Below, piece by piece: positions 1,753 through 3,021 of a stretch of DNA of 6,349 bases. Under the pieces are notes generated by a model. The model worked only from the letters and a program-made list of their open reading frames with translations. It searched no databases and was not told the origin of the DNA. The position numbers and the translations under genes are program-made. Within the stretch, counting starts at the first letter, position 1, and each line of letters opens with the position of its first letter. Location of the stretch: contig PWGE01000096.1 in NCBI GenBank assembly GCA_003554345.1, forward strand, positions 1 to 6,349, read 5' to 3'. This DNA comes from T1SED10-198M sp003554345 [NCBI: Candidatus Sumerlaeota bacterium] (GTDB lineage Bacteria; Sumerlaeota; T1SED10-198M).

Positions 1753-1785
1753 AAACCGGCAGTAAATAAAGTAAAGGAGTACACC

Positions 1786-2277
1786 ATGAAAAAGCAGTTG
1801 CTGACCCTGTGTATGGTTCTGTTGTGTATGGGATGGTTGTGTGCTGATTTTTATGTGATTTCCGGAGTGGGACGGTTAGGAGATCCTTTTGTTTTTGTCG
1901 ACAATACAATCACCTTTGTCACTAATTTGACTCCAGAGGTGGCTCCTGAAGGAACAGTGGTACAATTATCAGGACTGGAAAAGCGCCGTGACGTAAACTT
2001 TGCAGAAGCACGACTTGCCATTGAATTGGAACCTGACCCGGAGAATATATATACTGTTGCAGGAACAGGAAGAAAGGGTGATCCTTATGTCTATGTCGAG
2101 GATAAGGTGACTTATCTTACGAACCTTTCAGGAGAAGAGGTTGGTATCGGTTCGTTGGTTTCTATTTATAACCTGCGCGAACGTGAAAATGTGAATTTTG
2201 CGATAGGAGTGGAGTATATACCTCCGGAAAAGGAAAAAGATAATAGTGATTCTCCGGCGGAGACGGTAAAAGAGTAA
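1786..2277 (+). CDS. Exported protein with two tandem TRAM-like repeats, function unknown
   Basis: I do not recognise a named family for this 163-residue protein. It begins with a signal peptide: K2-K3, a hydrophobic core at about 5-18, and a likely signal peptidase I site after L-C-A at 18-20. The three early cysteines do not form a lipobox, so periplasmic or secreted is more likely than lipoprotein. The mature part is two tandem repeats with an exact 66-residue offset (about 22-83 and 88-149) and no gap between them; I count about 23 identities in 58 aligned positions. Both share G-x-G-R-x-G-D-P, V-x-V, a T-x-x-T-N-L strand, G-x-x-V and V-N-F-A. This pattern resembles the archaeal type of TRAM domain, a small OB-like beta barrel, although those are cytosolic nucleic-acid binders; this link is my inference. 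A charged, probably disordered tail (147-163) follows. The start is supported by AAAGGAG at 1773-1779, 6 nt before the ATG. Confidence 0.85.
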   Translation: MKKQLLTLCMVLLCMGWLCADFYVISGVGRLGDPFVFVDNTITFVTNLTPEVAPEGTVVQLSGLEKRRDVNFAEARLAIELEPDPENIYTVAGTGRKGDPYVYVEDKVTYLTNLSGEEVGIGSLVSIYNLRERENVNFAIGVEYIPPEKEKDNSDSPAETVKE

Positions 2278-2415: not shown

Positions 2416-3021
2416 ATGGAAACGAGTATTTTCTTGTGTGGAGTTGGAGGACAGGGGATTCTCAAGTTAAATGAGCTGATATCCTGGGCAGCTTTGCTTG
2501 CCGGGAACGATGTTAAAGGAAATGAGGTTCACGGTATGGCACAGCGTGGGGGGAGCGTGGTGTGTCATCTGCGCATTGGTTCTAAGGTCTATTCCCCTCT
2601 TATTCCTATGGGAGAGGCAGATTTTATCTTGTCACTTGAAAAGATAGAAGTGCTTCGCTATCATCATTATTTAAAAAAAGAGGGTGGTAAGGTCATGATT
2701 AACGATTTTAGCATCATTCCTACCACTGTTGCTACCGGTTCTGCCACCTATCCTGAAAATGCGGGCTCTTTATATGGAGAAGTGTTTTCAGATTACATCT
2801 TATTACCTGCTACCAAAATGGCATCTGAAGCAGGTACTCCCCGGGCGGCAAATACCGTTCTGGCTGGTTGCCTTGCTCCCCATCTGAATTTTGAGGATAA
2901 CATCTGGGAAAAAGCCATTGAAAAGGTTTTTCCCTCCAGGCTGGTCGAAATAAACAGGGAAGCTTTTCAAAAGGGGTTTTCATATGCTGCCCGTTTAGCA
3001 CAAAAAGGAGATGGTGATTGA
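2416..3021 (+). CDS. iorB: Indolepyruvate:ferredoxin oxidoreductase, beta (gamma-type) subunit
   Basis: Small subunit of the cytosolic enzyme that oxidatively decarboxylates aryl pyruvates such as indolepyruvate to aryl acyl-CoA, passing electrons to ferredoxin; used in aromatic amino acid breakdown (or synthesis in reverse) in anaerobes. It corresponds to the pyruvate:ferredoxin oxidoreductase gamma domain. The 201 residues fit IorB length. Signatures are the N-terminal G-V-G-G-Q-G-I at 9-15 and H-G-M-A-Q-R-G-G-S-V at 39-48, the latter highly typical of IorB. The ATG at 2416 is well supported by GAGAGGAG at 2402-2409, 6 nt upstream. The thiamine-diphosphate and Fe-S bearing alpha subunit (IorA), usually adjacent, is not in the window on either side. 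The nested hairpin lies just upstream. The family call is strong; the exact 2-oxoacid substrate is inferred. Confidence 0.9.
   Translation: METSIFLCGVGGQGILKLNELISWAALLAGNDVKGNEVHGMAQRGGSVVCHLRIGSKVYSPLIPMGEADFILSLEKIEVLRYHHYLKKEGGKVMINDFSIIPTTVATGSATYPENAGSLYGEVFSDYILLPATKMASEAGTPRAANTVLAGCLAPHLNFEDNIWEKAIEKVFPSRLVEINREAFQKGFSYAARLAQKGDGD

Follow-up and report, generated by a model that had tools for sequence, protein, structure and literature searches.

TRAM domains are RNA-binding modules of cytosolic proteins. Close comparisons for the present protein are the archaeal stand-alone TRAM proteins MM1357 (1yez) and TRAM0076 (MMP0076, 1yvc), which are single-domain and for which RNA chaperone activity is described (PMC6705878, PMC5572242). 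Alanine at Phe39, Phe42, Phe63, Phe65, Arg35 or Lys62 of TRAM0076 greatly reduced RNA unfolding, and Ile33 is mentioned beside these residues (PMC6705878). The word “secreted” is absent from both reports, and a search of the titles and abstract beginnings of the open-access literature, which is a weak test, did not find an exported TRAM-domain protein. An OB fold outside the cytoplasm is exemplified by SipA of Vibrio cholerae (YgiW family), an exported protein that binds antimicrobial peptides in the periplasm (PMC6370654).

Here we analyze a window of 6,349 nucleotides (the whole stretch of DNA under study) from a Candidatus Sumerlaeota bacterium, in which one ORF encodes a putatively exported protein with two tandem repeats (hereafter the window protein). 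Its repeats and the two archaeal proteins MM1357 and TRAM0076 have the G-x-x-G-D motif, the V-F-V strand, the G-x-x-V element and the final F-A in common, all in the same order and register. Unlike these archaeal proteins, the window protein carries tandem copies behind a signal-like start; moreover, the loop before the G-x-x-V strand is five residues longer in its repeats and most of the RNA-contact residues are replaced. With the YgiW/SipA proteins (BOF, PF04076) it appears to have in common only the fold class and the presumed exported location, as no PF04076 match was found for the window protein at E up to 1 and no BOF match was found in its own genome.

Gene and Genomic Setting

The source genome is 2.55 Mb long, is distributed over 454 contigs and is 87.66% complete. 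Within the window, the neighbors of the ORF (Table 1) are bioB, bioF, a gene for an indolepyruvate oxidoreductase beta subunit, a glycosyltransferase gene, a gene for a YraN-type protein and guaA, several of these names scoring under the NCBIfam cut-offs. The iorB-like beta-subunit gene at 2,416–3,021, which is itself under the NCBIfam cut-off, has no alpha-subunit gene adjoining it within the window. The operon context of the ORF gave no functional clue, and the neighbors of the single paralogue that was detected in the same genome are different genes. The paralogue gene adjoins a ribosomal-protein/ssb cluster, with the gene names based on our own reading; together with bioB, bioF and guaA, this gene content points to a bacterial genome. 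Divergent to the paralogue gene, an open frame at 2–1,768 of the same contig (G000:C436, minus strand) begins with a hydrophobic stretch and looks exported, and it runs off the contig end.

Table 1. Positions of the features of the window protein gene and of its paralogue (residues in brackets are those of the window protein).
Feature	Position	Strand	Description
Ribosome-binding site AGGAG	1775..1779	+	Sequence element, 6 bases ahead of the ATG
ORF, 163 aa	1786–2277	+	Signal-peptide-like start and two repeats
Signal-peptide-like N-terminus (1–20)	1786..1845	+	KK start, hydrophobic core; paralogue with like layout and other letters
Repeat 1 (22–87)	1849..2046	+	Predicted five-stranded OB/TRAM-like barrel and acidic linker
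Repeat 2 (88–153)	2047..2244	+	Predicted five-stranded OB/TRAM-like barrel and start of tail
Charged C-terminal tail (143–163)	2212..2274	+	Overlaps the end of repeat 2
Paralogue gene (L052)	G000:C436:2054–2938		Signal-like N-terminus, three repeats, C-terminal domain scoring above the TRAM cut-off of Pfam

Tandem Repeats and the Paralogue

Self-comparison of the window protein gave a sharp peak at offset 66 with 27 identities, the runner-up among offsets 60–71 having 13, and the two repeats aligned without a gap are identical at 25 of 66 positions. Their 55-residue core contains 22 identities with a BLOSUM62 score of 122, compared to a mean of –50.5 (SD 16.4) and a maximum of 19 when the second copy was shuffled 20,000 times. 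Both repeats contain G-x-G-R-x-G-D-P, T-N-L and V-N-F-A. The tandem repeat is thereby confirmed as real and well observed, in agreement with the initial annotation, which had described two ungapped 66-residue repeats of about 40% identity sharing these same motifs.

The best start of the paralogue is an ATG behind AAAAGGAGG. It encodes a protein with its own hydrophobic N-terminus, three further copies of the repeat and then a fourth domain, and in this genome the family consists of this protein and the window protein. The three repeats of the paralogue are identical to repeat 1 of the window protein at 28–33 of 53 core residues, while the pairwise core identity of all five repeats ranges from 22 to 43 of 53. 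Sixteen columns are invariant across the five, including G-x-G, G-D-P, T..T-N and R..V-N-F-A. For the ten possible pairs dN was 0.14–0.58, and dS was 2.8–4.3 in four of them and not computable, due to saturation, in the other six. Since dN is low while dS is high or saturated, the repeats are conserved as protein, and these values fit purifying selection.

N-terminus and Export

The N-terminus of the window protein reads MKKQLLTLCMVLLCMGWLCA-D, where the two initial lysines (KK) are followed by a hydrophobic core with an 11-residue Kyte-Doolittle mean of up to 2.85. The signal-like start that had been proposed at the outset is hence present in the first 20 residues, and cleavage would be expected after Ala20. 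Judged from this N-terminal anatomy and from the similar but differently lettered start of the paralogue, the window protein is probably exported. In signal-peptide cleavage, the residue that the candidate site L-C-A/D carries at position –3 counts as less usual, a feature that would suit an uncleaved anchor holding the barrels at the outer face of the inner membrane. However, the hydrophobic core of the window protein is short and the cleavage site of the paralogue (G-L-S/N-D) is better, as judged by eye; an anchor of this kind seems to us quite improbable.

Predicted Fold

The structure of the window protein was modeled with AlphaFold2 from an alignment of four rows derived from the two genes. 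The model contains two five-stranded OB barrels, with pLDDT block means of 87–95 over residues 1–120 and an overall mean of 85.9, so that a five-stranded OB-like barrel, as expected of a TRAM domain, is predicted for both repeats. The last 15 residues of the C-terminal tail (model residues 129–143) were placed with very low confidence (pLDDT under 50) and are probably disordered. A like strand layout was obtained for the three repeats of the paralogue, at lower confidence (mean pLDDT 70, pTM 0.28).

With Foldseek, no match to the window model reached an E-value of 0.001; the rows ranked highest, all of weak E-value, were the OB folds of ribosomal S1, Mpa and HIN-200. In VIA-align 2, the top five rows were RlmCD/RumA chains matching repeat 1 (Z 7.2–7.5, rmsd 1.9–2.0 over 55 residues), and the matched ranges of these chains are presumably their TRAM domains. 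The archaeal 1yvc (Z 6.3, rmsd 1.7) and 1yez (Z 6.0, rmsd 1.9) were also retrieved, along with MiaB (Z 6.1–6.3). Repeat 1 thus finds its best structural matches in the TRAM domains of RumA/RlmCD and MiaB. These domains belong to RNA-modifying enzymes, whereas no enzyme domain is recognised by Pfam in the window protein. The best non-TRAM row reached Z 6.8 and every Z was under 8; TRAM and other OB folds, S1-type included, are tied within Z 1. For the paralogue model, RumA and RlmCD were again on top (Z 6.8–7.4, next 6.4), in a comparison that barely covers its fourth domain.

An OB/TRAM-like fold of the repeats is therefore predicted with good confidence. The models support the OB fold class well, and within that class TRAM is favored by structure, though not proven, as TRAM chains rank first but with Z-scores tied to those of other OB folds.

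Relationship to TRAM Domains

Direct searches with the window protein did not place it in a known family. It matched none of the Pfam and NCBIfam families at E up to 1, thereby not reaching the PF01938 gathering cut-off, and a sequence search of the PDB yielded no match at E up to 10, while the repeat profile yielded two chance-like rows in the PDB (E 0.5 and 0.79). With two home-made TRAM HMMs, the best domain of the window protein scored –1.3 and 2.2 bits and the three repeats of the paralogue 4.8 and –2.6 bits, the maxima of 1000 shuffles of the window protein being 6.7 and 6.9.

Profile-profile comparison gave a mixed picture. When the profile of the five repeats was compared in hhalign to a set of seven archaeal TRAM sequences, 47 columns were aligned with a probability of 57.7 and a score of 25.8; the alignment follows the expected register and includes the closing F-A. 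This score was reached by 0/300 target-shuffled and 0/300 query-shuffled controls, the highest value in either set being 19.9, and reversing the profile lowered the score to 10.2. Other OB controls scored 11.0 (S1) and 11.2 (cold-shock), and a bacterial TRAM profile rich in RumA scored 15.4, a value reached by 5/300 and 7/300 shuffles. As a side observation on the cold-shock family, no PF00313 match was found in the source genome, which is incomplete, whereas such a match occurs in 34 of the 40 phylum genomes. Used alone, the three repeats of the paralogue retained the archaeal signal (probability 58.3, score 26.0), but the two repeats of the window protein gave a probability of 10.8 and a score of 19.2, under the shuffle maximum. 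When the two PDB fragments were taken out of the archaeal set, the five remaining haloarchaeal sequences gave a probability of 6.3 and a score of 17.8. The comparison, which none of the 600 shuffles equalled, thus appears to favor archaeal TRAM, while leaning on the repeats of the paralogue and on the two PDB fragments.

Additional evidence comes from the fourth domain of the paralogue, which scores 27.4 bits against PF01938 as a fragment and 23.5 bits in the whole protein, with a cut-off of 21. It also matches the archaeal stand-alone TRAM proteins (1yez, E = 6.7e-6; 1yvc, E = 0.0021). Judged by the Pfam cut-off, a TRAM-domain protein that begins with a signal-like stretch is therefore encoded in this genome. 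Three other proteins of this genome have TRAM matches over the cut-off (MiaB-type, PIN-TRAM and RumA-type, named by our own reading) and look like the usual cytosolic kind.

The repeats may alternatively represent an OB barrel of independent origin that resembles TRAM and serves a structural or adhesive function. The lack of a match of the window protein in any curated family, the tied structural Z and the preference of Foldseek, at weak E, for the ribosomal S1, Mpa and HIN-200 folds would all agree with such an origin. Nevertheless, archaeal TRAM (25.8) stands apart from the S1 and cold-shock domains (11) in the profile-profile comparison, and the paralogue joins three repeats and a Pfam TRAM domain in one chain; we regard an independent origin as rather unlikely. 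The proposal that the repeats are of the archaeal TRAM type is accordingly partly supported: it is mostly borne out for the fold and plausible for the ancestry, given the OB/TRAM-like model, the archaeal-profile score and the TRAM domain of the paralogue, but the window protein lacks a Pfam match, its HMM scores lie in the shuffle range and its structural Z is tied with other OB folds.

RNA-Contact Residues and Charge

The residues of the repeats were mapped onto TRAM0076 in the hhalign register, with blocks anchored by hand. Among the six contacts, all five repeats retain an equivalent of Phe42 (either Phe or Tyr) and of Phe65, and one repeat retains that of Arg35, while Phe39, Lys62 and Phe63 are retained in none. 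The equivalent of Lys28 is Arg in four of the five repeats and that of Ile33 is Phe or Tyr in all of them. In the fourth domain of the paralogue, Tyr occupies both positions 39 and 42 and none of the other four contact residues is found. The repeats hence do not carry the full set of six, which are the residues of one archaeal member and not a Pfam criterion.

The mature window protein has a pI of 4.36, with 26 acidic and 13 basic residues, and the paralogue a pI of 4.05. The repeats range from 4.05 to 4.77 and the archaeal TRAM sequences used here from 4.05 to 5.10, whereas all 10 bacterial RumA-type TRAM domains collected are basic (8.5–11.3). An acid pI was considered as an argument against RNA binding and was dropped, because the archaeal TRAM sequences are equally acidic; what speaks against RNA binding is consequently the loss of contact residues, together with export.

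These data bear on whether the exported repeats still bind nucleic acid, such as extracellular DNA or RNA of a biofilm or periplasmic nucleic acid, by means of the OB/TRAM face. Nucleic-acid binding is classical for the OB fold, the nearest structures are RNA-binding TRAM, S1 and cold-shock domains, the equivalents of Phe42 and Phe65 are retained along with, in four of the five repeats, an Arg in place of Lys28, and an acid pI is common to the archaeal TRAM sequences. On the other hand, Arg35 is nearly lost, Phe39, Lys62 and Phe63 are gone altogether, and the collected RumA-type domains are basic without exception. Retained binding of nucleic acid is, in our judgment, unlikely.

Distribution of the Repeat

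No homologue of the repeat was found outside the source genome among 40 genomes of the phylum, genome and viral contigs, plasmids and phages. With the paralogue as query, 2 of the 40 phylum genomes (the source genome included) were matched, namely the source genome and one other. The match in the latter, a 465-codon frame, aligns only to residues 238–286 of the paralogue, its TRAM end, and this frame also scores 41 bits against PF01938. At E up to 1 the repeat profile matched 8 of the 40 genomes, and the seven partial matches outside the source genome (E 0.08–0.61) were treated as chance. Two pattern-seeded scans of genome contigs produced 113 and 64 candidate stretches, none confirmed; being seeded by short peptides, such scans reach close relatives only. 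Viral contigs scanned with the repeat alignment produced 82 stretches, with none confirmed, and with the 1yez fragment 11 stretches, with no relative among them. Plasmids and phages searched by tblastn with the paralogue as query (E up to 1) revealed no homologue. As these searches are limited and the 40 genomes include no other member of the same genus or family, the term “lineage-specific” is provisional.

Five odd PF01938 matches in the phylum were hand-picked and read for export, and none of them contains the repeat. One has its TRAM domain at the very N-terminus without a signal, two are weak and partial, and another lies inside a protein that has N-terminal hydrophobic stretches and resembles the PIN-TRAM type. 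The fifth, in another phylum genome (G028:C33:20405–20533, minus strand), scores 18.4 bits against PF01938, compared to the cut-off of 21. This match lies at residue 515 of a 1305-codon frame, the start of which has a signal-like stretch.

Proposed Function and Implications

Our preferred reading, held tentatively and at somewhat less than an even chance, is that the window protein is an exported, TRAM-derived (or closely allied) OB-repeat protein whose barrels bind a non-nucleic-acid partner in the envelope. The two OB barrels would have the archaeal type of TRAM domain as their ancestor or as a close ally; following Sec export and cleavage of the signal they would serve as extracytoplasmic binding modules, strung together by acidic linkers. 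With most of the RNA-contact residues replaced, the repeats share instead the invariant T-N pair and the R-x-x-V-N-F-A strand, and by analogy with YgiW/SipA they may bind, for example, a peptide, protein or glycan of the envelope in a multivalent manner. Such a partner is proposed on the basis of the lost contact residues, the probable export and the precedent of SipA. The initial annotation suggested that the barrel may have taken on another ligand, and this agrees with the missing RNA-contact residues, the ligand itself being a guess.

A further step, which we consider possible but doubtful, is that the two proteins represent a lineage-specific exported family, in which a TRAM domain was duplicated and lost its RNA-binding face to become an extracytoplasmic repeat module, with the TRAM end of the paralogue recording this origin. 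A tandem TRAM behind a signal peptide, if real, would illustrate how an RNA-binding barrel is turned to a different purpose. Within the pair of paralogues, a near-TRAM domain could then be compared with its altered copies.
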